Shown here in pieces: positions 26,458 through 39,278 of a stretch of 64,000 bases of DNA (position 1 is the stretch's first letter; every line of letters starts with the position of its first letter). The translations under genes were made by a program, and so were the position numbers. A model generated the notes under the pieces. That model did no database searches. It saw only the letters and a list, made by a program, of their open reading frames with translations, and was not told where the DNA came from. Origin of the DNA: Crocinitomicaceae bacterium (lineage in GTDB: Bacteria; Bacteroidota; Bacteroidia; Flavobacteriales_D; Crocinitomicaceae). The stretch spans positions 62,001 through 126,000 of the forward strand of contig JAHEMR010000005.1 of the NCBI GenBank assembly GCA_024643545.1, given 5' to 3'.

Positions 26458-26478
26458 TTATTGTAATTTGGACAATAA
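26458..26478. promoter_or_regulatory. Operator site 1: TTATTGT-N7-ACAATAA (perfect)
   Basis: Perfect seven-base inverted repeat with a 7-bp spacer, 16 bases before the GTG of the permease gene; the arms extend two more bases outward. The same palindrome stands before susC (28776-28796). Confidence 0.75.
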
Positions 26479-26493
26479 TTTAAACCTGTATTT

Positions 26494-27918
26494 GTGAAAA
26501 AAACCAATTTCGGTGCCTTTGGTACACTCATCACTATTTTCTTTTTCTGGGGATTTGTTGCGGCAAGTAACGACATTTTGATTCCGGTCTTCAAAAAAGC
26601 CTTACACCTAAGTCAATTTGAATCACAATTGATTTCATTTGCCTTTTATGTAGCTTATACAGTTGGATCTATCCTCTATTTTGCCATTTCAGCACTGTTG
26701 AAAAAAGATGTTTTAAACAAAATCGGTTACCGCAATGGATTAGCGCTTGGACTAATTATTTCAGCTGTTGGAACCCTATTGTTTATCCCAGCTTCGAATA
26801 ATGCCTCATTTATCATGTTAATTTCAGGATTATTCATTGTTGGACTAGGATTTGCGCTACAACAAATTGCAGCCAATCCACTAGCAATTCAAATGGGAGA
26901 TCCTGCACAAGGAAACATCCGTTTGAGTATGGCCGGGGGGATTAATAACGTTGGAACAACGATTGGACCCGTAATTGTTTCCTTTGCTATTTTTGGTGGT
27001 GTATCTTCGGGAGAAACCACGCTCAATTTAGCAGCGGTTCAAACCCCATACATTTGCCTAGGCATTGCTTTTGTTATCGCCGCTATTTTCTTTAAATTTT
27101 CTTCTGTGCCGGATCGCATCGAAGGTTCGTCTTCCGAAGGTGCAGGAAAAATCATGGAAACTCTTCGTCATCCTCAAGTATTATTGGGGATGTTAGCAAT
27201 TTTCTTATATGTGGGAGTAGAAGTTGCAACTGCAAGTAATTTGCCTGAATTTATGAAGCAAAAGCTTGGCACAAGTGAAAATGCAGTCGCTCCTTTCGTT
27301 TCTTTGTACTGGGCAAGTTTGATGATTGGTCGTTGGACCTCCGCTGCAGGGGTTTTTGATTTGAGCAAATCCATGAAAACATTACTTGGGATTGTACTTC
27401 CATTCGTGGCATTCGGAATTTTTGCCGGAGCAAACATAATCGGAGGACATGACATCAATGAGCTTTACCCATACTTGGGTATTGTCGTACTTCTAATCGC
27501 TGCAGATTATGTAAGTGCAGGTAATCCAGTTAAACAAATTATGATTTACGGAACGTTAGGTGCCCTTGCGTTAGCCATCGGTATTTTTAGTTCAGGAATG
27601 ACCAGTGTTTTTGCCTTTATTTCTGTTGGTTTATTTTGTAGTACATTATGGCCATGTATCTTTACATTATCCATCGCGGGTATGGGAGAAAACACCAATA
27701 CAGCCTCAAGTTTACTCATCATGATGATTATGGGGGGCGGATTCATTTCAGTTCTACAAGGTGCGCTGGCTGATGACTCCGTTTTAGGAATTCAACAATC
27801 CTACTGGTTAGGGGTCGTTTGCTTTGCATACCTCGTTTTCTTTGCTTGGAGCGTAAGTAAAATACTTCAAAGAAGAGGGGTTGATATTTTTTCTGCTGAA
27901 AAAGTTTCTGGACATTAA
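26494..27918 (+). CDS. MFS sugar permease, FucP/GluP (fucose/glucose-galactose:H+) family
   Basis: 474 aa with about 12 transmembrane helices and a GTG start that matches the conserved N-terminus (ITIFFFWGFVAASNDILIPVFK). The Asn-Asp in TM1 and LQQIAANPLAIQMG (about residues 128-141) are typical of the FHS/GluP group, which carries hexoses with protons or sodium. In this locus it should carry glucose released from beta-glucan into the cytoplasm. It is followed after 18 bases by the NUDIX regulator gene, probably in one operon. A perfect copy of the locus palindrome just upstream points to control by that regulator. Confidence 0.88.
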   Translation: MKKTNFGAFGTLITIFFFWGFVAASNDILIPVFKKALHLSQFESQLISFAFYVAYTVGSILYFAISALLKKDVLNKIGYRNGLALGLIISAVGTLLFIPASNNASFIMLISGLFIVGLGFALQQIAANPLAIQMGDPAQGNIRLSMAGGINNVGTTIGPVIVSFAIFGGVSSGETTLNLAAVQTPYICLGIAFVIAAIFFKFSSVPDRIEGSSSEGAGKIMETLRHPQVLLGMLAIFLYVGVEVATASNLPEFMKQKLGTSENAVAPFVSLYWASLMIGRWTSAAGVFDLSKSMKTLLGIVLPFVAFGIFAGANIIGGHDINELYPYLGIVVLLIAADYVSAGNPVKQIMIYGTLGALALAIGIFSSGMTSVFAFISVGLFCSTLWPCIFTLSIAGMGENTNTASSLLIMMIMGGGFISVLQGALADDSVLGIQQSYWLGVVCFAYLVFFAWSVSKILQRRGVDIFSAEKVSGH

Positions 27919-27936
27919 ATTCCCTTTGTTTTGAGC

Positions 27937-28632
27937 ATGTACCGCATTGATTTTAATGACTTTTTCACCTCGGCATTTTCCGTGGATTGTATTTTATTTG
28001 GTTATTCGGAAGGTGAAATAAAAGCCTTATTGATTAAAAGAGCCATGCAACCATTTGAAAATCTCTGGGCGATCCCGGGTGATTTAATATATCCGGATGA
28101 AGATTTAGAGCAAGCTGCAGAACGCGTCTTGTTTGAATTAACCGGATTAAATAACATTGCGATGCACCAATCGCAGACATTTGGAAAACCAAATAGACAT
28201 CCCCAAGGACGCGTAATTACCATCTCCTACTTCGCATTACTTCGTATCGAAGATTTTGAGGTAAAAGCATCTTCCTGGGCAGGAGATGTACAATGGGTTT
28301 CACTCAAAAACATGCCGGATTTAGCGTTTGATCACAATCACATTTTATCAAGCACGTATGAAATGCTCAAATTGAAACTTCAAAATGAACCCATTTGTTT
28401 CGATTTACTTCCAGAACGATTTACTCTGAATGAATTCCAACAACTGTACGAATTTGCCTTTGAACAGGCGTTTGATAAAGCGAACTTCAGAAAAAAAATC
28501 AAATACATTCCACTCATCGCACATGACGAAAAACAGCAAAATGTTAAACATCGTCCAGCAAAGCTCTTTTCATTCGACAAATCATCCTTCGAAGAAGAAA
28601 CGAAGCAAAACCGTTACACATTTAAAATGTAA
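27937..28632 (+). CDS. NUDIX-domain transcriptional regulator (NrtR/AraR-like)
   Basis: 231 aa from the ATG at 27937; a TTG two codons earlier is less likely. Residues about 10-145 are a NUDIX fold: VDCILFGY, LLIKRA, LWAIPGDL. The NUDIX box is degenerate: the R is kept, but two of the catalytic Glu are Val and Leu (ERVLFELTG). Residues about 150-231 form a winged-helix-like C-terminus (LPERFTLNEFQQLYEFAF, FRKKI, NRYTFKM). Known relatives are NUDIX-derived regulators that sense sugar or nucleotide ligands without hydrolysing them. It sits between the permease gene and susC, and is the likely binder of TTATTGT-N7-ACAATAA; the ligand is unknown. Confidence 0.85.
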   Translation: MYRIDFNDFFTSAFSVDCILFGYSEGEIKALLIKRAMQPFENLWAIPGDLIYPDEDLEQAAERVLFELTGLNNIAMHQSQTFGKPNRHPQGRVITISYFALLRIEDFEVKASSWAGDVQWVSLKNMPDLAFDHNHILSSTYEMLKLKLQNEPICFDLLPERFTLNEFQQLYEFAFEQAFDKANFRKKIKYIPLIAHDEKQQNVKHRPAKLFSFDKSSFEEETKQNRYTFKM

Positions 28633-28645
28633 AATTTAAAATACT

Positions 28646-28670
28646 AGTTATTGTATTTTGTACAATTATT
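28646..28670. promoter_or_regulatory. Operator site 2: TTATTGT-N7-ACAATTA (one mismatch)
   Basis: Shares the left arm with sites 1 and 3 and has one altered base in the right arm. Its TTG (28651-28653) is exactly 19 bases before TATATTTA (28673-28680), so the operator overlaps a -33 element. No protein gene starts within the next 150 bases. Confidence 0.6.
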
Positions 28671-28672
28671 TA

Positions 28673-28680
28673 TATATTTA
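28673..28680 (+). promoter_or_regulatory. -7 element TATATTTA of a putative short transcript
   Basis: TTG-N19-TATATTTA makes a near-consensus promoter that fires toward the terminator at 28727-28754. The same eight bases plus C recur before susC at 28810-28818. Confidence 0.5.
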
Positions 28681-28684
28681 CCAT

Positions 28685-28754
28685 GTACTAGCGAACATTT
28701 CGAATAGTCAATGGTTAAATACTTAGTAAAAAGGGGCTTCGGTCCCTTTTTTTT
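28685..28754 (+). ncRNA. Candidate regulated small RNA, about 70 nt
   Basis: Promoter (28651-28680), operator overlap and a strong terminator (28727-28754) enclose about 70 bases with no plausible protein frame. The ATG at 28711 opens a frame that runs through the terminator, and the one at 28683 gives two codons. The segment contains the small dyad CGAA-CAT-TTCG at 28692-28702. Alternatively the terminator simply ends the permease-regulator transcript and the promoter is weak. Confidence 0.4.
28727..28754 (+). terminator. Terminator with UUCG loop between regulator gene and susC
   Basis: AAGGGGC and GTCCCTT pair around TTCG (one G-U pair), extended by A-T pairs, with an eight-T run. Confidence 0.85.
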
Positions 28755-28775
28755 AGAGGCGAGATTTAAAAAAAG

Positions 28776-28796
28776 TTATTGTTCTTTTTACAATAA
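28776..28796. promoter_or_regulatory. Operator site 3: TTATTGT-N7-ACAATAA (perfect)
   Basis: Perfect palindrome 40 bases before the susC ATG, ending 13 bases before the -7-like TATATTTA at 28810. It therefore covers the -33 region, a position suited to repression or to activator contact. Confidence 0.75.
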
Positions 28797-28809
28797 TTGA
28801 TAATCTTTT

Positions 28810-28817
28810 TATATTTA
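28810..28817 (+). promoter_or_regulatory. -7 element TATATTTA of the susCD operon
   Basis: One mismatch to TAnnTTTG. It lies 19 bases before the susC ATG, directly downstream of operator site 3. Confidence 0.5.
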
Positions 28818-28836
28818 CGAAACTAACTAAGCTAAA

Positions 28837-31800
28837 ATGATTAAAAAACTATTCATTCAACTGCTATTTATTGGAGTGAGTGGCTTCGCATTTTCTCAAG
28901 AAATGTCGGTCACTGGATTCGTAAAAAGCGAACAAAACGTAGGATTACCGTTTGTTAAAGTTCAAGTAAAAGGGATTACTACAGGCGTTACGACTGACGG
29001 AACTGGTTTTTACACTTTAAAAGTAAGCGATGTCACCAATTCTACCCTCTTGTTTACCTTAACTGGATATGAAAAACAAGAAGTACAGCTTAACGGCCGA
29101 AGCACGCTAGACATTGTTCTCGTAGAACTCGTAAACAATCAGCAAGAAGTTGTAGTTGGATATGGCACCTCGAAAAGCAAAGAAGTAACCGGAGCAACTT
29201 CGAGAGTGAACGGTGAAAACATTGAGAAAATGAGTGTTGCACGTGTTGACCAAGCCCTACAAGGACAAGTTGCGGGTGTTAATATTGCTACGAATTCAGG
29301 TTCGCCAGGCGGATCTTCAAACATACGTATTCGTGGTTTATCCACTTTTGGAGATAACGACCCATTAATTTTAGTAGATGGTGTTGTATATGATTCAGAA
29401 GGATTAAATGCACTAAACCCGTCGGATATTAAATCCATCAACGTCTTAAAAGACGCGACTGCAGGTATTTACGGTGTTCGTGCAGCGAATGGAGTGATCA
29501 TCGTTGAAACGAAAAAAGGAAACATCAATAGCAAACCTCAAGTGGAATACAATGCTTATTGGGGTCAACAACAAACATCTAGAAAACTCGACTTATTAAC
29601 CGCTCAAGAATATGCCGTTATTAAAAATGAGATGTTTGCCATGGGCGGTCAAGACATGCCTTTCAATAACACCAATTTAGGAATAGGAACACCATGGCAA
29701 GATTCTGTCTTCCAAACTGCACCTATTCAAAGTCACAACTTAAGCATCAGCGGAGGAACAATGAATACGCGCTATTCCATCGCTTTAGGATACTTTAATC
29801 AAGATGGTATCGTTGGTGGACCTAAATCAAATTTCTCGCGTTACAATGCTCGCATGAATTTCAGCACAGACATGTCAACGAAACTAAAGTTAAACTCAGT
29901 CTTACTTTATTCAAACGACTCTCGTAGCACTTTGCCAGAGAATGGAATTGGTTCTGTGTTATATAATACCATAAATGCATTCCCGAATGTTCCTATTCGC
30001 AAACCAAACGGACAATTCTCGTATTTGGAACAAGTGAGTGACATCATTAATCCAATTGCGCAAATGCAGAACCAATATAATTGGAACACAGCGAATAAAC
30101 TTGTTGGAAAAGAAGAATTTATCTATTCATTCAATGATCATTTATCCTTCACAAACAGGGTAAACTACAACGTAGCATTTGTCGATGGAAAAGTATTCTC
30201 ACCTCTCGTTTGGTACGGAGAAGGAAAGTATGCGAATACTGCTATCAATGATCAATTGGAAACACCAACGGTTGAATTAGCGCCTGGTGTCGAAATTAAC
30301 CGTGGAGCAGCTGTTTACGAAGAACGTTCAACGTTTGTTGATTTAACGTACGAAAGCTTCTTGAATTACGAACGTACATTCAATGAAAATCACAAGATTA
30401 AAGGGACAGCAGGTGTTTCCATTTTTCAACGTAAAGGAAATTCATTGAGCGGAACAGCATATGGCATTCCAAACAATTCCGTGGAATACGCAGACATTTC
30501 AGCAAATACTGCTCAAGGTGGTTACTTAAATAACGTTGGCTCTTGGCAGTTTACTGAGCGCCTTGTTTCCTCGTTCTTGCGTGCTGAATACAGCTACAAA
30601 GAGAAATACATGTTCTCCGGAATCTTAAGAAGAGATGGATCAAGTAAATTCGGACCAAATAGCCGTTACGGTATCTTTCCAACAGCATCCGTTGGTTGGT
30701 TAATGTCCGAGGAATCATTCTTCAAAGTAAAATTCATCGACTACGCAAAACTTCGTGTAAGTTACGGTGTTTCTGGAAATGACCAGATTCCTAACTTTGC
30801 ATACCGTGGATTGTTAAACGGAGAAGGAGTTTACGTTTTTGATGATTTAATCACTCAAGGTGTTGCGATTGGACGACCATCAAACCCAGATTTAAAATGG
30901 GAAACAACTCGTCAGTTGAACATTGGTGCAGACTTCACATTCTGGAAAAAATTAGACTTTACTACCAATTACTTTATCAAAAATACGTTTGATTTACTTT
31001 TCCAACCTGATGTTACGGCGATCATTGGTTCATACGGACCTGGTGGATATCCCCCGGTAATCAATGCTGGAAATGTATCAAACAAAGGAGTCGAATTGGA
31101 ATTTGCTTACCATATCCGCAAGAAAAAAGATTTCTCAACGGATTTAAATTTTAACGTGACAACGATCACGAATAAGGTAACCAAAGTTCCGAATGGCGTA
31201 GACTATATCCCAGGAGCTGGATTCAGTGTTGGTGGAGATGTCGCAACGCGTTTTCAACAAGGGTATGAAATTGGTTATTTCTATGGTTACCAAACAGCCG
31301 GTGTTTTCCAAAATCAAGCACAAATCGATGCTTCACCAGTACAAGACGGAGCAAAACCAGGAGACTTAATCTTTGTTGATCAAAATGGGGATGGAAAAAT
31401 CAGTTTTTCTGATGACAGTGACAAAACCTATTTAGGTTCAGCCATCCCAGACTTCACTTTCGGATTCTCTTTCAATGTGCGATACAAAGCGTTCGACCTT
31501 TCAGGTATGGTTTATTCAGCGATTGGACAAGAAATCATTCGTAACTATGAGCGCCAGCAACCATATGCGAATCAGCTAGGATACATGGTTGACCGTTGGA
31601 CCGGAGAAGGATCAACGAACGTTAATCCACGTGTAACGACTGAATCGACGCATAATAACGTATTCTCTTCTTACTACGTAGAAGATGGATCATTTGCACG
31701 ATTGAAAAATGTTCAACTTGGTTACAGTTTCTCTGCGGCAAAATTAAAGAAAATCAAAGTGGATTCATTCCGCGTCTATCTTTCTGCTAACAACCTATTT

Positions 31801-31926
31801 ACGTTGACGCGCTACCAAGGATTCGACCCAGACCTTGGTTCCTCTAATGCGCTTTCAGCAGGTGTTGACTACGGATTTTATCCACAAGCAAAAACATTCA
31901 TGGGTGGTATTCAATTAAAATTCTAA
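28837..31926 (+). CDS. SusC-like TonB-dependent outer-membrane transporter
   Basis: 1029 aa. Signal peptide 1-20 (ends AFSQ), then a carboxypeptidase-D-like regulatory domain (about 24-95, VTGFVKSEQNVGLPFVKVQVKG). The plug domain (about 105-230) has the SusC hallmark VVVGYG and IRIRGLSTFGDNDPLILVDGV. The rest is the 22-strand barrel, ending in an aromatic-rich strand (MGGIQLKF). With SusD it should bind and import oligosaccharides using TonB energy. The susD start lies 3 bases after its stop. Operator site 3 precedes it, so this is probably the first gene of the glucan-utilisation operon that runs to GH3. Confidence 0.95.
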   Translation: MIKKLFIQLLFIGVSGFAFSQEMSVTGFVKSEQNVGLPFVKVQVKGITTGVTTDGTGFYTLKVSDVTNSTLLFTLTGYEKQEVQLNGRSTLDIVLVELVNNQQEVVVGYGTSKSKEVTGATSRVNGENIEKMSVARVDQALQGQVAGVNIATNSGSPGGSSNIRIRGLSTFGDNDPLILVDGVVYDSEGLNALNPSDIKSINVLKDATAGIYGVRAANGVIIVETKKGNINSKPQVEYNAYWGQQQTSRKLDLLTAQEYAVIKNEMFAMGGQDMPFNNTNLGIGTPWQDSVFQTAPIQSHNLSISGGTMNTRYSIALGYFNQDGIVGGPKSNFSRYNARMNFSTDMSTKLKLNSVLLYSNDSRSTLPENGIGSVLYNTINAFPNVPIRKPNGQFSYLEQVSDIINPIAQMQNQYNWNTANKLVGKEEFIYSFNDHLSFTNRVNYNVAFVDGKVFSPLVWYGEGKYANTAINDQLETPTVELAPGVEINRGAAVYEERSTFVDLTYESFLNYERTFNENHKIKGTAGVSIFQRKGNSLSGTAYGIPNNSVEYADISANTAQGGYLNNVGSWQFTERLVSSFLRAEYSYKEKYMFSGILRRDGSSKFGPNSRYGIFPTASVGWLMSEESFFKVKFIDYAKLRVSYGVSGNDQIPNFAYRGLLNGEGVYVFDDLITQGVAIGRPSNPDLKWETTRQLNIGADFTFWKKLDFTTNYFIKNTFDLLFQPDVTAIIGSYGPGGYPPVINAGNVSNKGVELEFAYHIRKKKDFSTDLNFNVTTITNKVTKVPNGVDYIPGAGFSVGGDVATRFQQGYEIGYFYGYQTAGVFQNQAQIDASPVQDGAKPGDLIFVDQNGDGKISFSDDSDKTYLGSAIPDFTFGFSFNVRYKAFDLSGMVYSAIGQEIIRNYERQQPYANQLGYMVDRWTGEGSTNVNPRVTTESTHNNVFSSYYVEDGSFARLKNVQLGYSFSAAKLKKIKVDSFRVYLSANNLFTLTRYQGFDPDLGSSNALSAGVDYGFYPQAKTFMGGIQLKF

Positions 31927-31929
31927 ACG

Positions 31930-33399
31930 ATGAAACGAATTCAAAAATCACTGATTTTTACAGGTCTAATCATCCTGTCACTTACACAAACAGCTTGTGA
32001 TAAGTTCCTTTCCGTTGATCCTCCTTACACACAAGATGTAGAGAATTTCTTTCAAACACCAGAGGATTATGACCGTGCATTAACCGGAGCATACGATTTA
32101 TTACAAGCGTCCTTCTTAACCCTGTGGATTGGAGAAATTGCATCTGATAACGCCATTGCCGGTGGGGAAAGTGTGAATGACTCTCCCGGATTGCATCAAA
32201 TCGATAACATGACGCATGGTGGTGTAAATGTGGAACTTAGAAATGTGTTACGTTGGAATTATACGGGATTAACTCGCGCGAACTACATCCTTGAACACAA
32301 AGACAACATCGATTTTCCTGGAAAAGCACACATCATCGCAGAAGCTAAATTCCTTCGCGCATACTACTACTTTGAATTAGTGAAATATTTTGGAGATGTT
32401 CCATTAATCATCGACAAACGAATCGGCATTGAAGAAGCACTTCAAATCCCGCGTTCGCCGAAATCAGAGGTTTACGCACAAATCGAAAAAGATTTACAAG
32501 AAGCTTCTGCAGTTCTTAACCCTGTTGCAAGTCAAAAAGGGAGAGCAACAAAAGGAGCCGCTTTGTCATTCTTAGGAAAAGTTTACTTGTATCAAAATAA
32601 ATTTACAGAAGCAGCAGCAACTTTTGACGAAGTAATTGCTTCCGGAAGTTATAGCCTCATTCCAAATTATACAGATCTTTTTTCTGTTGCCAATGAAAAC
32701 AACAGTGAAACAGTATTTGATGTACAATACACAGGTTTAGAAGGAGGAAGTTACGGATGTTTAATTTGCCTTGAAGGAAACGCAGCCGTTGGATTCCAAG
32801 GAATTCGTCAATACAATGGTCCCGTTTATGGCGATGGAAACAGCTACAACTTGCCTACGCAAGAATTATATGATGCGTTCAGTTCCATCGACGGACGTCG
32901 CGCAGCAACAGTTTTAGACATCGATGCATTTATCGCATCACAACCAAATCCAGCTTCGATAACCTATGCCATTGGTGCTGGTGGACACACCGGATATTAC
33001 AACAATAAGTACATCAAACGTCAAGGTGAAATCGGTTTGCCAGATAATGATTTAACAAGTCCAGTAAATTACCGTGTTATGCGCTATGCAGACGTCCTTT
33101 TAATGGCTGCAGAGGCACACTACCAACTTGGACATACATCAACGGCACAGCAATTGGTTAATCAAGTGAGAGGCCGTGCAGGGGTGCCTGGAATTCCAGT
33201 CAATTCTATTAACGTCATTTATAAAGAACGTCGATATGAATTATCAGGTGAAGGATTACGCTTCTTTGACTTGGTGAGAACTGGTCAGGCAGCCACCTAC
33301 ATTAACGGGTTCGTTACAGGAAAACATGAATTATTCCCAATTCCACAAGTTGAAATTGATTTAACTGGAGGTCATTGGTCACAAAACCCAGGATATTAA
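31930..33399 (+). CDS. SusD/RagB-like glycan-binding lipoprotein
   Basis: 489 aa with a lipoprotein signal (lipobox LTQTAC, Cys at about residue 23). The mature N-terminus DKFLSVDPP and the TPR-like segments AEAKFLRAYYYFELVKYFGDVPL and KGAALSFLGKVYLYQ are typical. The C-terminal part ends ELFPIPQVEIDL...WSQNPGY, the standard SusD ending. It caps the SusC barrel at the cell surface and binds incoming glycan. Tight coupling to susC (3-base gap) fits the obligate complex. Confidence 0.95.
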   Translation: MKRIQKSLIFTGLIILSLTQTACDKFLSVDPPYTQDVENFFQTPEDYDRALTGAYDLLQASFLTLWIGEIASDNAIAGGESVNDSPGLHQIDNMTHGGVNVELRNVLRWNYTGLTRANYILEHKDNIDFPGKAHIIAEAKFLRAYYYFELVKYFGDVPLIIDKRIGIEEALQIPRSPKSEVYAQIEKDLQEASAVLNPVASQKGRATKGAALSFLGKVYLYQNKFTEAAATFDEVIASGSYSLIPNYTDLFSVANENNSETVFDVQYTGLEGGSYGCLICLEGNAAVGFQGIRQYNGPVYGDGNSYNLPTQELYDAFSSIDGRRAATVLDIDAFIASQPNPASITYAIGAGGHTGYYNNKYIKRQGEIGLPDNDLTSPVNYRVMRYADVLLMAAEAHYQLGHTSTAQQLVNQVRGRAGVPGIPVNSINVIYKERRYELSGEGLRFFDLVRTGQAATYINGFVTGKHELFPIPQVEIDLTGGHWSQNPGY

Positions 33400-33411
33400 T
33401 ATTTAAAACCT

Positions 33412-34263
33412 ATGAAAATGAAACTACTATTTTCAGCAAGCATTCTTTTAATCCTTTTTGCTTGTAAAAAAGACAATCCGCAATTGGGCCCAGCACCAAC
33501 TGCCGCAGATGCCGCATTCACCTATTCACCTTCTGCGACTAATGCCAATATCATTGAGTTTACTGCGAATAATCCAAACCTTCAATGTCTTTGGGATTTT
33601 GGAAATGGAACGAAAGCAAAAGGAGCTTCGGTTAGTTCTCCTTATCCATATGCTGGAACTTACACCGTAAAATTAACGGTGTTTTCTTCTGGTGGAAGTA
33701 AAAGTTCTACTCAAGAAGTTACAATTGCCCAAGATAACTTAGGACTCTTGAATAATCCTATTTTCATCATGTTAACGGGTGGAATAAATGGTCCTGGCTA
33801 TAAAACTTGGGTGATTGATTCGACAGCCGATGGTCATATGGGTGTTGGTCCAGATCCAATTAGTCCATTGGGAAACATTCCAGAATGGTGGTCAGCTGGT
33901 CCTTTAGACAAGTCTGGTGCTGGTTTGTATGGAGACCAATACGTTTTCCACTTAAACGGATTTAAATTCGACATGATCAATCATGGTGATGTATATGTAC
34001 ACAATTCACTTTCAGCTAATTTCCCAGGTTCGTTTCAAAATCTAGGTGATTTTACAGCTCCTTATGCTGACCAAATGGATGAGTCTTGGACATTACTAGA
34101 AAACGCTGATACCACCATCACGATTTCCAATAACGCATTCATTGGTTTCTATACGGGAGTACATACGTATAGAATATTGGATATAACTGACTCTACACTA
34201 TCTTTACAGTACAAACATCACGCAGGCGGATTCAATTGGTATTTACGCCTGAAAAGTGAATAA
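33412..34263 (+). CDS. PKD-domain surface lipoprotein, probable glucan-binding protein
   Basis: 283 aa; ATGs at 33412 and 33418 are both possible. Lipobox ILFAC. Residues about 38-108 are a PKD domain (CLWDFGNG, YAGTYTVKLTV). Residues about 120-283 form a second domain with TWVID, GVGPDP, WWSAGP, DQYVFHLNGFKF and a closing GGFNWYLRLK. The same plan (TWKLA, VGPDA, WWSN, ending GYWQFIYQK) opens the T9SS protein at 37836, so I treat it as a shared module. Its position after susD is where surface glycan-binding proteins usually stand. Glucan binding is inferred from context. Confidence 0.82.
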   Translation: MKMKLLFSASILLILFACKKDNPQLGPAPTAADAAFTYSPSATNANIIEFTANNPNLQCLWDFGNGTKAKGASVSSPYPYAGTYTVKLTVFSSGGSKSSTQEVTIAQDNLGLLNNPIFIMLTGGINGPGYKTWVIDSTADGHMGVGPDPISPLGNIPEWWSAGPLDKSGAGLYGDQYVFHLNGFKFDMINHGDVYVHNSLSANFPGSFQNLGDFTAPYADQMDESWTLLENADTTITISNNAFIGFYTGVHTYRILDITDSTLSLQYKHHAGGFNWYLRLKSE

Positions 34264-34273
34264 CATCATCATT

Positions 34274-35362
34274 ATGAGCATTCATCACCTAATTGTTTTT
34301 GTTTTTGCTGGACTCGCAGGCTGCGATAAAAACAAACCACCAGTTGTTACGTTGCCCACGAATTTGGTGACTTCCATAACAACGAACGGAGGTTTAGTGG
34401 ATATACAAGCAACGGCAGAAAACGCAAACTTCTACACCGTTACCTTTTATCATAATAATGATTCAACGGTAGTTGAGACAACAGATGGACATGCTGCTCA
34501 TACTTTTACAGCTACGGGTACATATGCAATCAAAACATGTGCACATACCACCTACACAGACTTTATTCAAAAAACTGACAATGTCATAGTGAATATTTCT
34601 GGAGGGACTTCAGGTGCACCAACCACAGGTTACAGTACCCCTAATTCATACGCAAACTATTCACTGGTTTGGAGTGACGAATTCAATGGTACAAGTTTAT
34701 CCTCAGACTGGACATTTGACCTTGGTACCGGAAGCGGTGGATGGGGAAATAATGAATTACAATATTACACCAACCAAAACTACAGCCTAAATGGTGGCTA
34801 TTTAGAAATTACGGCGAAAAATCAATCATTTAATTCTCAATTGTATACTTCTACGCGAATGAAAACGCAAGGAATTAAATCTTGGAAATATGGGCGAATT
34901 GACATCCGCGCTGCCATTCCTTACGGACAAGGTATCTGGCCTGCGCTGTGGATGTTAGGAGACAATATTTCAACAAGTGGATGGCCGGCTTGTGGAGAAA
35001 TTGATGTCATGGAATTAATTGGAGGAGCTGGTGCAAATGACCGCACAGTTTACGGAACGGCACACTGGAGTGACAATGGTACGCATGCGCAATATGGAAA
35101 TAGTAGCACTTTACCTTCTGGGAAATTTGCAGATCAATTCCATGTTTTCTCCATTATATGGACACAAAATAGCATTACATGGCTAAGAGATGATGTCGTT
35201 TACAACACATTGGATATTACCCCAGCAAATCTTAGTGAATTTCAAGAAAAATTCTTCTTGATTTTTAACGTAGCAGTAGGCGGTAACTGGCCTGGAAATC
35301 CAGATGCTACGACTGCCTTCCCTCAGACAATGTACGTTGACTACGTTCGCGTTTTTCAATAA
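34274..35362 (+). CDS. GH16 endo-beta-1,3-glucanase (laminarinase) lipoprotein
   Basis: 362 aa from the ATG at 34274; an in-frame GTG at 34256 would overlap the previous gene by 8 bases. Lipobox GLAGC, then an Ig/PKD-like region to about residue 110. The GH16 domain begins YSLVWSDEFNG. The catalytic motif is GEIDVMELIG, with nucleophile E242, D244 and acid/base E247, the bulged form typical of laminarinases. WKYGRIDIRA, PALWMLG and AVGGNWPG are further GH16_3 hallmarks. It should cut internal beta-1,3 (or mixed-linkage) glucan bonds at the cell surface. Within the SusCD operon it defines the likely substrate. Confidence 0.93.
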   Translation: MSIHHLIVFVFAGLAGCDKNKPPVVTLPTNLVTSITTNGGLVDIQATAENANFYTVTFYHNNDSTVVETTDGHAAHTFTATGTYAIKTCAHTTYTDFIQKTDNVIVNISGGTSGAPTTGYSTPNSYANYSLVWSDEFNGTSLSSDWTFDLGTGSGGWGNNELQYYTNQNYSLNGGYLEITAKNQSFNSQLYTSTRMKTQGIKSWKYGRIDIRAAIPYGQGIWPALWMLGDNISTSGWPACGEIDVMELIGGAGANDRTVYGTAHWSDNGTHAQYGNSSTLPSGKFADQFHVFSIIWTQNSITWLRDDVVYNTLDITPANLSEFQEKFFLIFNVAVGGNWPGNPDATTAFPQTMYVDYVRVFQ

Positions 35363-35385
35363 ACAGATTATAAATTAATACACCA

Positions 35386-37689
35386 ATGAAAAATTTACAT
35401 TCCTACTTCGGTGGCATGCTTTTGCTATTGTTTTCCTGTAAAAGCGCACAATCGATTACCTCCACTCAATCAAGCTCTGAAGAAAAATCATTGAACGCAC
35501 GTATTGCTCAGATGTCTATTGAGGAAAAAGTTGGGCAAACTTGTCAAATTACCTTAGACGTCATCACCCAAACAGATGCGAAAGGCCAGACACTTACTCC
35601 GTCAGCCATTGATACTGCGAAACTAAACGAAGCCATTCTTAAATACCATGTTGGCTCCGTTTTAAATGTTGGTTGGCACACCCTAAGTTTGGATGAATGG
35701 AAAGGAATTATTCCCGCCGTTCAAAATCCATACACAACAGGAAAAACAAACGTGCCGATTATTTATGGAATTGACGCTATTCACGGAGTAAATTACACCG
35801 TTGGCGCCACATTATTCCCGCAAGAAATTGGATTAGCAGCAACTTGGAATCCTGCATTGGCGAAAAATTTCGGTGAAATCACCGCTTATGAAACCCGAGC
35901 GTCTGGAATTCCATGGAATTTTTCTCCTGTACTAGATTTAGGAAGACAACCTCTTTGGTCACGCACCTTTGAAACACTCGGTGAAGATCCTTACTTAATT
36001 TCACAAATGGGTTCTGCCATCATTGATGGATACCAAGGAGGTACAACACCTGATGCATACCATGTAGCATCTTGTATGAAGCATTTTGTCGGATATAGCG
36101 GAACAAATAGTGGTCGAGATAGAACCCCTGCTTGGATTCCAGAAAAATACATGAAAGAACTATACTTGCCTTCCTTCAAAGCAGCGGTGGAACATGGCGC
36201 ATTGACCGTTATGATCAATAGTGGCGTTGTTAATGGGATTCCTGGACATATCAATCACCATTTAATTACTGAAACACTGAAAAACGAGTGGGGATTTGAA
36301 GGATTTGCCGTTTCGGATTGGGAAGATTTTATCATGTTACACACCGTACACTCAACTTCACCTAGTTTGGCGGATGCATATGTACAAGCCTTCAACGCTG
36401 GGGTTGATATGAGCATGGTTCCATTAAGTCCACAATACAAAGAATATTGCACCATTATGGTAGACGCCGTAAAAACAGGTAAAATTTCCATGGATCGTTT
36501 GGATGATGCCGTTCGTAGAATATTGCGTGTTAAAACGCGATTGGGTTTATTTGAAAAACCCGTTCCAACATTCGAGAACTATCCCAAATTTGGTTGTGCG
36601 GAATTTAAACAAGCTTCCTTGAATGCAGCGTTAGAATCCATCACCTTATTGAAAAACGAAAACAGCGTTTTGCCTTTGAAAACCAATCAAAAAATATTGA
36701 TTGCAGGTCCAACATCAAATAACATGATTTACCTAAATGGTGCTTGGACGCATACCTGGCAAGGAATGGATACCGCTTTTAATACCCGCGGATGTTTAAC
36801 CGTTAAGGAAGCGTTTGAAAAGAAATTAGGAAAAGAAAATTGCTTGTTTACACAAGGAGCAGAATTGTATGCAGACGGTGGTTTTGAAAAAACACGCTAC
36901 GTAAATTTAAACGACTATAAAGAAAAATTGAAGTTAGTGGATGTTGTCGTTTTATGTTTGGGAGAACTTCCTGCTACAGAAAAACCAGGTGACATTTTAT
37001 CTTTAAATCTGAATTCAGAACAACGAATTCTAGCTCAAATCGCTTACGAGCAAAACAAAAAAGTAATCCTTGTGCTAATTGAAGGAAGACCGCGCATTAT
37101 TCATGACATTGTAGCGGGTGCTGCAGGTATTGTTCAAGCATATTTACCTGGTAATTATGGTGCGGAAGCTTTGGTTGCATTAATGTTTGGTGAAAAGAAT
37201 TTTAGTGGAAAACTTCCATACACCTACCCTAAATTTGATGGAGTCATTGAATTTTACGATCATCCCAAAAGTGTAGACCGTTCAAAATCTGGAGATTTCT
37301 CCGCATATAATCCTGAATGGGACTTTGGTTTTGGACTTAATTACTCAAACTTTGAATATACCGCGCTTAACTTAAGTCAAGATACATTTTCAGACAAAGA
37401 CAGCATCGCTGTAACCGTAACCCTTAAAAATAAAAGTTCAATCGCCGGCAAAGAGGTTATTCAACTTTACGCAAGTGATGACTACGCCAGTTTAATTCCA
37501 ACCGGTAAATCCTTAAAAAGATTCTGCAAAATCGACGTGCCCGCGAATTCAGAGGTAAGTAAAACATTTTATTTAAACAGAACTGATTTTCAATTCGTAG
37601 GAAAAGAGGGGGTATTTATCGTTGAAGAGGGAGAATTTACGATTCGTGTCGGAAATCTGAGTAAAAAATTAAGCTACAAAAAGAAATAA
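35386..37689 (+). CDS. GH3 beta-glucosidase, lipoprotein
   Basis: 767 aa with lipobox LLFSC. The N-terminal TIM barrel carries YGIDAIHGVNY, the KHFVGYSGTNSGRDR substrate loop and the nucleophile motif FAVSDWEDF with D311. The C-terminal alpha/beta sandwich (about 415-640) contains GELPATEKPGD, where the acid/base Glu is expected. A fibronectin-III-like domain closes the protein (about 670-767). It should release glucose from the non-reducing ends of beta-glucan oligosaccharides, probably in the periplasm. It is the last gene of the susC operon. Confidence 0.94.
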   Translation: MKNLHSYFGGMLLLLFSCKSAQSITSTQSSSEEKSLNARIAQMSIEEKVGQTCQITLDVITQTDAKGQTLTPSAIDTAKLNEAILKYHVGSVLNVGWHTLSLDEWKGIIPAVQNPYTTGKTNVPIIYGIDAIHGVNYTVGATLFPQEIGLAATWNPALAKNFGEITAYETRASGIPWNFSPVLDLGRQPLWSRTFETLGEDPYLISQMGSAIIDGYQGGTTPDAYHVASCMKHFVGYSGTNSGRDRTPAWIPEKYMKELYLPSFKAAVEHGALTVMINSGVVNGIPGHINHHLITETLKNEWGFEGFAVSDWEDFIMLHTVHSTSPSLADAYVQAFNAGVDMSMVPLSPQYKEYCTIMVDAVKTGKISMDRLDDAVRRILRVKTRLGLFEKPVPTFENYPKFGCAEFKQASLNAALESITLLKNENSVLPLKTNQKILIAGPTSNNMIYLNGAWTHTWQGMDTAFNTRGCLTVKEAFEKKLGKENCLFTQGAELYADGGFEKTRYVNLNDYKEKLKLVDVVVLCLGELPATEKPGDILSLNLNSEQRILAQIAYEQNKKVILVLIEGRPRIIHDIVAGAAGIVQAYLPGNYGAEALVALMFGEKNFSGKLPYTYPKFDGVIEFYDHPKSVDRSKSGDFSAYNPEWDFGFGLNYSNFEYTALNLSQDTFSDKDSIAVTVTLKNKSSIAGKEVIQLYASDDYASLIPTGKSLKRFCKIDVPANSEVSKTFYLNRTDFQFVGKEGVFIVEEGEFTIRVGNLSKKLSYKKK

Positions 37690-37730
37690 ACAGCAGCGAA
37701 CATTTTCGTTAATACATTGTTTAGAAGAGG

Positions 37731-37773
37731 AATACAATAAATTTTTTTATCCTTATTGTATTTTTTACTATAT
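37731..37773 (+). promoter_or_regulatory. Composite element: AATACAATAA...TTATTGTATT hairpin overlapping operator site 4
   Basis: A perfect ten-base inverted repeat (37731-37740 and 37753-37762, 12-base loop) is followed by a T run, so it can end the GH3 transcript. Its right arm TTATTGT also starts a degenerate copy of the operator (TTATTGT-N7-ACTATAT, 37753-37773). TAGTTTCG follows at once and could be a -7 variant for the next gene. Confidence 0.5.
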
Positions 37774-37835: not shown

Positions 37836-39278
37836 ATGAAAAAACTTTACATTTTATTTCTTCTTCCTTTCTTTGGACTTAATGCCCAAATCGAAAGTAC
37901 TTGGAAACTAGCACCACAAGCGGGAGCTTTGGCTGTTGGACCAGATGCTACAAACTTAACGTGGTGGTCAAACTCTTCAGGAGACGTTACTACAAGAGCT
38001 TGTTTATTTGATGACTCAGTGAAATTTGCTCCAGGAGGAACAATGACACATTACATGGATGGTAATACTTGGTTAGAAGGATGGCAAGGTGCTGCACCAG
38101 ATGGCTGTGGTGCTCCAGTAGCTCCACACAATGGTGGTCAAGCAACTTACAACTTTGATGCTGCCGCAGGAACACTAACTGTAAACGGACTTGGTGCTCA
38201 CCTTGGTTTAGCGAAAGTAACAAACACAGGTGAATTGACTAGCCCAGCTAACGCCGTGTCTTCTATCACTTACAACGTAGCTTTTTCAAATGGAGGAAAC
38301 ACCATGACGTTAGGAATTAACTTTGGTCCTGGTTACTGGCAGTTTATTTACCAAAAAACACAAATTGTTCAAGCAGCGACACCGTTAATCACGTTCCAAG
38401 TGAACATGAATAACTACACTGGACCTGCATTTACGAACGTTTATGTAAGTGGTACATTTAACAACTGGAGCGGAAACGCAAACCCAATGACTGATGCGAA
38501 CTTAGATGGAATTTGGGAGGTAACTTTACCAATCAACCAAGGAGCTATTGAATACAAATTCTCTTTAGACAACTGGTCTAACTCTGAGCAATTCGCTGGA
38601 GGAGAAACGTGTACAGTAACTAATGGTGGATTCACAAACCGTTCTTACACAGTAGTTGGAGACGCTAACTTAGGCGCAGTATGTTACGAAAGTTGTTCAG
38701 TTTGTACATCTGATGTTACATTCCACGTTAACATGAGTGACTACGTTGGGGCAGCATTTACAGGAGTGTTCATTAATGGAACATTCAACGGATGGAATGG
38801 AACTTCCAATCCAATGACGGATGCAAACTTAGACGGAATCTGGGATGTTACTTTACCATTGCCAAATGGAGCGATTGAGTACAAATTTACCTTAGACGGA
38901 TGGAATGCTTCTGAGCAATTTGTTGGTGGTGAGTCATGTACCATTACAACAGGTGGATTTACAAATCGTGCGTACACAGTAGCTGGAGTAGCTGACTTAG
39001 GAGTTGTATGTTACCAAGCTTGTGCTGATTGTATTGGTGGATTGAATGAAAATGTAGCTTCTACATTCACATTAATGCCGAATCCTGCACAAACATCGTT
39101 CAACATCGTTTCTGCTGAAAAAATCACAGAAATTGAATTAGTTGACTTAAGCGGAAAATCAGTTCGCAAAGTAACTGGTACAACTAACGTAAATGTTGCT
39201 GACCTTGTTCAAGGAATGTACACAGTAATCGTTCGTTCTGAGAACGGAACTTCTACATCACGTGTAATCGTTGAATAA
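37836..39278 (+). CDS. T9SS-secreted protein with WWS-type domain and two CBM48/E-set-like repeats
   Basis: 480 aa. Signal peptide 1-18 (ends LNAQ). Residues 20-172 form a domain shared with the PKD lipoprotein (TWKLA, AVGPDA, WWSN, TWLEGWQG, GPGYWQFIYQK). Two tandem modules follow, about 186-287 and 295-396. Each has a GTFNNW/GTFNGW motif, DANLDGIWxVTLP and AIEYKF, which is the pattern of glycogen-binding CBM48/AMPK-beta-like E-set domains. Residues about 410-480 are a type A sorting domain (MPNPAQTSFNI, GMYTVIVR). No catalytic motif is seen. Probably an extracellular glucan-binding protein of this locus; own terminator at 39302-39329. Confidence 0.88.
   Translation: MKKLYILFLLPFFGLNAQIESTWKLAPQAGALAVGPDATNLTWWSNSSGDVTTRACLFDDSVKFAPGGTMTHYMDGNTWLEGWQGAAPDGCGAPVAPHNGGQATYNFDAAAGTLTVNGLGAHLGLAKVTNTGELTSPANAVSSITYNVAFSNGGNTMTLGINFGPGYWQFIYQKTQIVQAATPLITFQVNMNNYTGPAFTNVYVSGTFNNWSGNANPMTDANLDGIWEVTLPINQGAIEYKFSLDNWSNSEQFAGGETCTVTNGGFTNRSYTVVGDANLGAVCYESCSVCTSDVTFHVNMSDYVGAAFTGVFINGTFNGWNGTSNPMTDANLDGIWDVTLPLPNGAIEYKFTLDGWNASEQFVGGESCTITTGGFTNRAYTVAGVADLGVVCYQACADCIGGLNENVASTFTLMPNPAQTSFNIVSAEKITEIELVDLSGKSVRKVTGTTNVNVADLVQGMYTVIVRSENGTSTSRVIVE
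38391..39022 (+). repeat. Two direct 305-bp repeats (offset 327 bp) encoding the E-set modules
   Basis: 38391-38695 and 38718-39022 align in frame at an offset of exactly 109 codons and encode nearly the same module. This indicates a recent internal duplication. Confidence 0.85.

Follow-up and report, generated by a model that had tools for sequence, protein, structure and literature searches.

SusCD loci are usually controlled by hybrid two-component systems (HTCS), by SusR-like regulators or by pairs of extracytoplasmic function (ECF) sigma and anti-sigma factors, all of which provide substrate-linked control of a polysaccharide utilization locus (PUL). The same kind of control is proposed here for a beta-glucan locus in a 64,000-nucleotide stretch of a Crocinitomicaceae genome (the whole stretch is referred to as the window), where it would be exerted by a NUDIX-derived protein. 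Four palindromes of the form TTATTGT-N7-ACAATAA stand in this locus, and we consider it quite probable that they are the operators of the protein encoded at 27937-28632, acting as a BtAraR-like repressor of three transcription units that is released by glucose or a close derivative.

The closest relative of this protein with a solved structure is BtAraR (BT0354), an NrtR-family protein from Bacteroides thetaiotaomicron. Common to the two are a NUDIX-like domain with an impaired NUDIX box, a winged helix, a 21-bp semi-palindromic operator (predicted here) with 7 bp between cores of 4 bp, tandem operators, and SusCD operons as predicted targets. In the BtAraR-DNA structure the contacted cores read GTGT-N7-ACAC, and L-arabinose is held by hydrogen bonds from Arg34, Arg86 and His131 (PMC4666351). 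BtAraR was predicted to control SusCD operons, some of them jointly with HTCS regulators (PMC4666351). The differences lie in the genes (arabinose genes for BtAraR, beta-glucan genes here), in the operator core (GTGT versus TTGT), in the sharing of some BtAraR PULs with HTCS regulators, and in residues given below. XylR (BT0791, NrtR family), a predicted regulator of xylose genes (PMC3878776, PMC4666351), is likewise a NUDIX-derived sugar regulator of Bacteroidota and was compared by description only. SoNrtR (3gz5/3gz6), of NAD metabolism, has the same domain order and fold family (E 5.2e-24).

Because control of SusCD operons by BtAraR has been published (PMC4666351), a NUDIX regulator over such genes is not wholly new. 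With this qualification, the interpretation put forward in the initial annotation is supported: of the refuting conditions that it named, scatter of the palindrome over the genome and absence from related loci were both examined, and both results favored it. What appears to be new is that the regulon serves beta-glucan, that an HTCS partner is apparently lacking, and that recognition helix and operator have both changed. Searches of the open-licence literature turned up no title or abstract dealing with NUDIX control of a beta-glucan locus, which is no proof of novelty.

Palindromic sites of the locus and of its relatives

The predicted operators and the promoter-like boxes beside them are as follows.

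26458..26478, no strand: predicted operator O1, TTATTGTAATTTGGACAATAA, 5' of the MFS-regulator operon
26464-26471: -7-like TAATTTGG within the O1 spacer, read by eye
28648..28668, no strand: predicted operator O2, the distal susC site, one mismatch
28673-28681: -7-like TATATTTAC by O2, read by eye
28776..28796, no strand: predicted operator O3, the proximal susC site, exact
28810-28818: -7-like TATATTTAC by O3, read by eye
37753..37773, no strand: predicted operator O4, TTATTGTATTTTTTACTATAT, two mismatches, running into TATATTAG

The initial annotation had placed perfect palindromes before an MFS permease gene and before susC, a one-mismatch copy after the regulator gene, and a degenerate copy before the gene of a protein with a type IX secretion system (T9SS) tail, and each was recovered at its place, with zero, zero, one and two mismatches, respectively. 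No scatter was found in the genome (2.75 Mb in 38 contigs, 93% complete), where both exact copies are in this locus. One of the three one-mismatch copies lies in the locus, and the others (window position 1996 and C2:237643) were set aside, being inside reading frames; the two-mismatch copies number 36, one of them in the locus.

Looser counts do not single out the locus, and would suit the idea that the palindromes are chance products, or copies of a mobile repeat, in AT-rich intergenic DNA. With up to three mismatches, the window has 8 matches as against 11.4 expected from shuffles, and with up to two the genome has 41 as against 43 for the reversed control. Since the loose counts are at chance level, the case rests on exactness, position and conservation. 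In 97 regions upstream of the MFS, susC and CBM48 genes of related loci, there were 52 exact matches (in 42 regions), as against none for each of 41 other permutations of the half-site; when spacers of 3 to 12 were tried in these regions, matches with at most one mismatch appeared only with a spacer of 7.

Position tells the same way. The orthologous loci numbered 65, or 53 after removal of 12 duplicates, and 49 of these (L074-L077 being left out) were scored for a site with at most two mismatches in the 250 nucleotides upstream of each gene. Such a site precedes susC in 36 of 37 relatives (35 of 37 with at most one mismatch) and the CBM48-T9SS gene in 25 of 27, all 25 with the right half ACTATAT. 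It precedes the MFS gene in 32 of 34; three of these sites (L067, L068, L069) fall within the terminal part of the dxs gene and probably arose by chance, so that 29/34 is the fairer count. The best of the 41 permuted half-sites reached 3/37, 7/27 and 4/34 for susC, CBM48 and MFS, respectively. Upstream of dxs (0/35), susD (0/30), PKD (0/30) and GH16 (0/26) no such site was present, and upstream of GH3 it was seen in 2 of 22 loci. The two-mismatch O4 looks real on this comparison because 25 of 27 relatives keep a copy, always with the ACTATAT half. Given the exact matches counted above, their restriction to a spacer of 7, and the recurrence of the site upstream of MFS, susC and CBM48 with none upstream of dxs, susD, PKD or GH16, chance or a mobile element appears extremely improbable. 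In three loci (L104:8150-9967, L113 and L141), a different and longer MFS-like frame of about 540-605 amino acids replaces the permease after O1, while the operator stays.

The site also goes with the regulator. In a genus-level sample of 61 genomes, 54 exact sites (2 for the reversed control) were spread over 31 genomes. All 31 were among the 44 genomes with a regulator ortholog and none among the 17 without one (Fisher p=2e-7); the 31/44 includes G021, where a contig end truncates the regulator gene, and counting G021 as lacking the regulator gives 30/43 versus 1/18 (p=3e-6). A tally from the site list put 47 of the 54 exact sites within 3 kb of the regulator gene, and displaced parts of the locus carry the site too: four of the other seven are on other contigs, upstream of locus-type genes, namely an MFS gene in L137, a CBM48-T9SS gene with GH16 after it in both L134 and L135 (the latter assessed through its near-identity to L134), and a GH3-preceded CBM48-T9SS gene in L136. 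The remaining unlinked sites (L131:7623, L132:5028 and L133:5666) were rejected as background, being one position inside a 456-amino-acid reading frame in three related species. In the rearranged L117-L119, a site with zero to two mismatches stands before the GH3 gene and a T9SS gene that lie beside the regulator, and in L110 and L111, also rearranged, before the regulator gene itself. Exact sites were found in other families as well (L170, L187, L076, L077).

This distribution bears on whether the palindrome is instead the site of another regulator, such as a global Crp-like one, with the NUDIX protein a bystander. An additional palindrome, wwwTATGTTnTAnAACATAwww, does occur in Bacteroides AraR and XylR operons (PMC3878776), and the araM promoters have been annotated with a putative Crp-like site (PMC4666351). 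The half-sites and the spacing of that palindrome are different, however. A global site should also recur outside the locus and in genomes that lack the NUDIX gene, and exact copies do neither. The half-site core, moreover, goes with the recognition helix of the NUDIX protein (see below). A bystander role is very unlikely on these grounds.

The regulator and the genes around it

The locus comprises eight annotated genes.

26494..27918, plus strand: MFS sugar permease of the FucP/GluP/NagP type (Pfam MFS_1; the NCBIfam NagP, gluP and fucP models score below their cut-offs)
27937..28632, plus strand: predicted NUDIX-derived transcriptional regulator (Pfam NUDIX, NrtR_WHD and AraR_C)
28837..31926, plus strand: susC (TIGR04056, 789 bits)
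31930..33399, plus strand: susD (Pfam SusD_RagB)
33412..34263, plus strand: PKD-domain protein (Pfam PKD)
34256..35362, plus strand: GH16, endo-1,3-beta-glucanase (laminarinase)-like (best PDB match 4crq, an endo-1,3-beta-glucanase, E 2.9e-71)
35386..37689, plus strand: GH3, beta-glucosidase-like (best PDB match 5jp0 BoGH3B, E 1.7e-170)
37836..39278, plus strand: T9SS-secreted protein with two CBM48-like domains (Pfam CBM_48 in two stretches, Por_Secre_tail)

SusC and SusD together with a laminarinase-like GH16 and a GH3 make this a beta-1,3-glucan (laminarin-type) PUL, with the substrate predicted from the gene content. The last protein, earlier termed an E-set protein, consists of two CBM48 stretches and a T9SS tail. 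Gaps between the genes suggest three transcription units, MFS-regulator, susC-susD-PKD-GH16-GH3 and the CBM48 gene, and a site heads each. Among the eight proteins only the one at 27937 has a DNA-binding Pfam domain, which bears out its earlier designation as the sole DNA-binding candidate. None of the eight is an HTCS, a SusR-like regulator or an ECF sigma or anti-sigma factor, and the genome-wide search, which covered HTCS sensors (Y_Y_Y) and not SusR-like or ECF regulators, gave no Y_Y_Y match in the 93%-complete genome.

The regulator scores 47.3 bits with PF00293 (NUDIX; cut-off 21.1), and its C-terminal winged helix of the NrtR type is recognized by PF21906 (64.1 bits; cut-off 27) and PF19368 (46.0 bits; cut-off 23.8). 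Its NUDIX box reads GDLIYPDEDLEQAAERVLFELTGL, and alignment confirmed the degeneracy reported earlier: the REUxEE part is impaired, as it is in BtAraR (RVLAELTGL). By comparison, a predicted palindromic operator of about 21 bp in linked metabolic promoters is also what the NrtR/AraR type has. BtAraR (5bs6/5deq) is the best PDB relative (E 7.4e-47), covering residues 13-223 of 231, and its residue numbers are used below. In the alignment of key residues, L078 gave no protein row and L073 was cut before the helix.

The sugar-binding triad Arg34, Arg86 and His131 is kept in 48 of 48 genus-level orthologs, while Phe36, Gly48, Phe49 and Gly89 of BtAraR are replaced by Met, Asp, Leu and Gln in the protein studied here. 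The recognition helix reads DKANFRK in place of DKRNFRK, so that the DNA-intercalating arginine (Arg180) is an alanine here, as in 47 of 47 genus-level orthologs with the helix covered. Position 204, a lysine in BtAraR, is histidine; Lys179, Asn181, Lys184 and Arg205 are kept. Thus, an AraR ortholog with all six DNA-contacting positions (Lys179, Arg180, Asn181, Lys184, Lys204, Arg205) and linkage to arabinose genes is not what the locus encodes, the linked genes being those for beta-glucan. Nor does the protein look like a regulator of NAD metabolism: it scores 139.1 bits with NCBIfam NF050029 (NrtR equivalog; cut-off 400), the ADP-ribose contacts of SoNrtR, Asn43, Lys76 and Arg98 (PMC4666351), are Met, Leu and Gln here while the equivalent of Arg41 is kept, and there is no NAD gene among the eight annotated locus proteins.

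Proposed repression and effector, and a possible recognition code

In the mechanism that we favor, a dimer of the regulator would read TTGT-N7-ACAA through its winged helices, sit on the core promoter elements of the three units and repress them. As beta-1,3-glucan is cut to glucose and glucose is imported by the MFS permease, glucose or a close derivative would bind in the dead NUDIX pocket and the repressor would leave all operators. The regulator gene would itself be under the same repressor (autocontrol). The sites, their conservation, their joint distribution with the regulator gene and their presence at displaced parts of the locus are computational results; binding, repression and the sugar effector are what we infer.

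The promoter consensus used was TAnnTTTG at -7 and TTTG near -33 (PMC7366714); a scan for sigma-70-type promoters was set aside, as it does not model Bacteroidota promoters. By eye, the distance from the operator centre to the first base of the -7-like box is about -4 (MFS), 6 (CBM48), 15-17 (distal susC) and 24 nucleotides (proximal susC). An operator that covers promoter elements at such varied offsets suits a repressor, and the steps of about 10 nucleotides between offsets may reflect binding on one face. The same regulator and operators could also serve an activator, or respond to an effector other than glucose (gentiobiose, laminaribiose, glucose-6-phosphate or a nucleotide sugar). The centre of O3 near -33 of the susC promoter, again by eye, is compatible with activation, GH3 could leave disaccharides, and the pocket differs from that of BtAraR at positions 36, 48, 49 and 89. 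Offsets that differ from promoter to promoter are unusual for activation, however, L-arabinose is a negative effector of BtAraR binding (PMC4666351), and Arg34, Arg86 and His131 are kept. An activator or another effector is quite possible, if on balance rather less than probable.

Loci of distant relatives, in other families, favor glucose. In L076 (by Pfam), the regulator stands beside a complete Entner-Doudoroff set, zwf-pgl-edd-eda (L076:11280-15759), with a one-mismatch site before zwf; in L186 it stands beside the same set (by similarity to L076), with a variant site before zwf; and an exact site separates gapdh from the regulator in L077. Since these zwf-pgl-edd-eda and gapdh loci carry the site, glucose is favored as the effector, and the repressor probably responds to it.

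A relation between helix and half-site emerged from loci of other families and paralogs. The 40 loci of other families were drawn from 69 genomes (of 295) that had a match at E <= 1e-50, and the test used 48 loci (37 plus 11 others), with L179, L180 and L199 absent for want of a regulator row and paralog locus L085 left out. An exact GTGT-N7-ACAC near a gene start was found in 14 of the 20 loci whose regulator has Lys/Arg179-Arg180, versus 1 of the 28 others (p=1e-6). In those 28, TTGT was found in 11, TGGT in 4 and TAGT in 3.

The genome has its own paralog of the regulator (G000:C1:126564; L079:8466-9275), another NUDIX/NrtR protein, 42% identical, which is divergent from a GH65-pgmB-like-MFS-GH13-kinase-like locus, keeps Arg180 and falls in a separate clade (99/99). 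It is likely the alpha-glucan counterpart.

Several points weigh against the repressor and its code. Promoter positions were read by eye, and binding by the regulator and its effects on expression are predictions. The exact site is missing in 13 of the 44 regulator-bearing genomes, with an ATATTGT variant in its place before susC in five of the loci read, and some genomes counted as regulator-less are incomplete (e.g., 68% and 74%). No site with at most two mismatches was found before MFS in L070 and L072, or outside dxs in L067-L069; before susC in L120; before CBM48 in L071 and L120; or anywhere in the stretch read of L075 and L101. As for the code, TTGT alone does not separate the helix classes (11/28 versus 3/20, p=0.11), 12 of the 28 loci without Lys/Arg179-Arg180 yielded none of the exact 4+4 sites sought, and GTGT is absent from 6 of the 20 loci with that pair. 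Among these six is the genome's own paralog locus (L079), where no exact GTGT site was found and where the code predicts one. Moreover, the loci share ancestry, so the test counts are not independent and the tests are inflated.

Family branches and a candidate short RNA

In a tree of 66 proteins, the protein studied here falls in a fully supported set of 14 inside a clade of 43 (97/93), the alpha-glucan paralogs form a separate clade of 10 rows (99/99), and BtAraR sits on a long branch of unsure place. Despite the shared ancestry of the loci, the combination of a Lys-Arg regulator and GTGT is spread over several branches and reaches into the beta-glucan clade, where L175 has it. In the Thr/Val179-Arg180 group (94/74), TTGT was found in four of five members (L076, L077, L187 and L193, not L189), and L198, a Thr-Arg protein elsewhere in the tree, has neither GTGT nor TTGT.

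Neighbors were compared at a threshold of at least 30% identity over at least 40% of the reference. In the beta clade, 21 of 30 loci outside the main genus set carry a GH16, GH3 or GH5-like gene or part of a five-gene set; in the alpha clade, none of 9 does and 7 of 9 have GH65/GH13/pgmB-type genes; a further 9 loci have gapdh and a kinase-like gene in four. Some reference proteins came from L075, L076, L077 and L079, so that L076 (Entner-Doudoroff), L077 (gapdh) and L079 (alpha) match themselves, and the 21/30 is independent of them. The five-gene set recurs near the regulator (L119:13260-20391) and consists of a GH2/GH5-like gene, families of about 615 and 563 amino acids without a Pfam match, a weak CBM11-like gene and CBM9. 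Whole or in part, it is also present in L074, L075, L077, L171-L173, L176-L178, L185, L187, L189 and L200, and a one-mismatch site precedes it in L119. Two NUDIX regulators occur in one stretch in L117 (L117:13318-14022), L074, L201, L202 and L208, adjacent in L202 and L208 and otherwise a few kb apart; this suggests duplication and division of labor.

Between O2 and O3 lie a promoter-like box, about 70 nucleotides, and a GC hairpin with a T-run.

28685..28755 (ends approximate), plus strand: candidate short RNA with 5' stem-loop, core, GC hairpin and T-run
28707-28726: core GTCAATGGTTAAATACTTAG in the candidate RNA, exact once in the genome
28731-28748: GC hairpin, then T-run (Vienna, -8.5 kcal/mol)

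The hairpin at 28731 was absent from the output of a terminator scan, perhaps because the preceding A-run lengthens the stem. Two clades share this arrangement with different sequences, the first with an invariant block of 20/20 columns in 13 sequences and the second with one of 10/10 in 12. In the spacer after the T-run, identity is 0.65 (first clade) or 0.60-0.68 (second clade) and climbs to 0.85 and 0.77, respectively, near O3, and parts of the transcribed stretch are equally variable (0.60 in one block). A third clade (L067-L070, L072) has a single operator and a leader with a hairpin lacking the T-run that continues into susC. All three clades fold into a 5' stem-loop, an unpaired GGUUAA-type core and a 3' hairpin; the hairpins show a few compensatory changes, and the 5' stems several broken pairs as well.

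Rfam gave no match at the candidate RNA, its sole match in the region (37651-37701) being far below the cut-off. A short leader peptide was rejected, since no frame is kept between clades in the alignments read, and among the locus genes no duplex-energy target stands out in both clades. With model R1, built for one clade, strong matches (E <= 3.5e-16) were confined to this locus and came from 6 of 61 genomes, of which at least four had supplied the model's sequences; all others among the matches listed were weak (E >= 1.2e-4), and a wider family was rejected on this basis. The candidate may act as a small RNA or as an attenuator, or may be where the MFS-regulator transcript ends.

We tentatively advance a broader proposal, which we hold to be somewhat unlikely as a whole. 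NUDIX-derived regulators would be class-wide sensors of glucose polymers in Bacteroidia, with beta-glucan, alpha-glucan and glycolysis branches, the beta operator having passed from GTGT to TTGT, TGGT or TAGT through loss of the intercalating Arg180 or of Lys179. In this genus the regulator would also drive a small RNA, conserved and terminated, that lies between the operators in front of susC and adds another layer of control.

In water, much carbon flows through laminarin-type beta-glucans, and arguments about how Bacteroidota sense polysaccharides have mostly relied on HTCS systems. If, as is probable here, one soluble repressor reads the end product, the logic would be different, namely a response to the released monosaccharide rather than to an oligosaccharide at the membrane. 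Specificity, effector and the role of the intercalating arginine can be tested directly through the sites and their linked residues, in a family with solved protein-DNA structures. The same code could serve to annotate loci in other families of the class, where such proteins, if they carry a name, go under "8-oxo-dGTP diphosphatase" or "NUDIX hydrolase".

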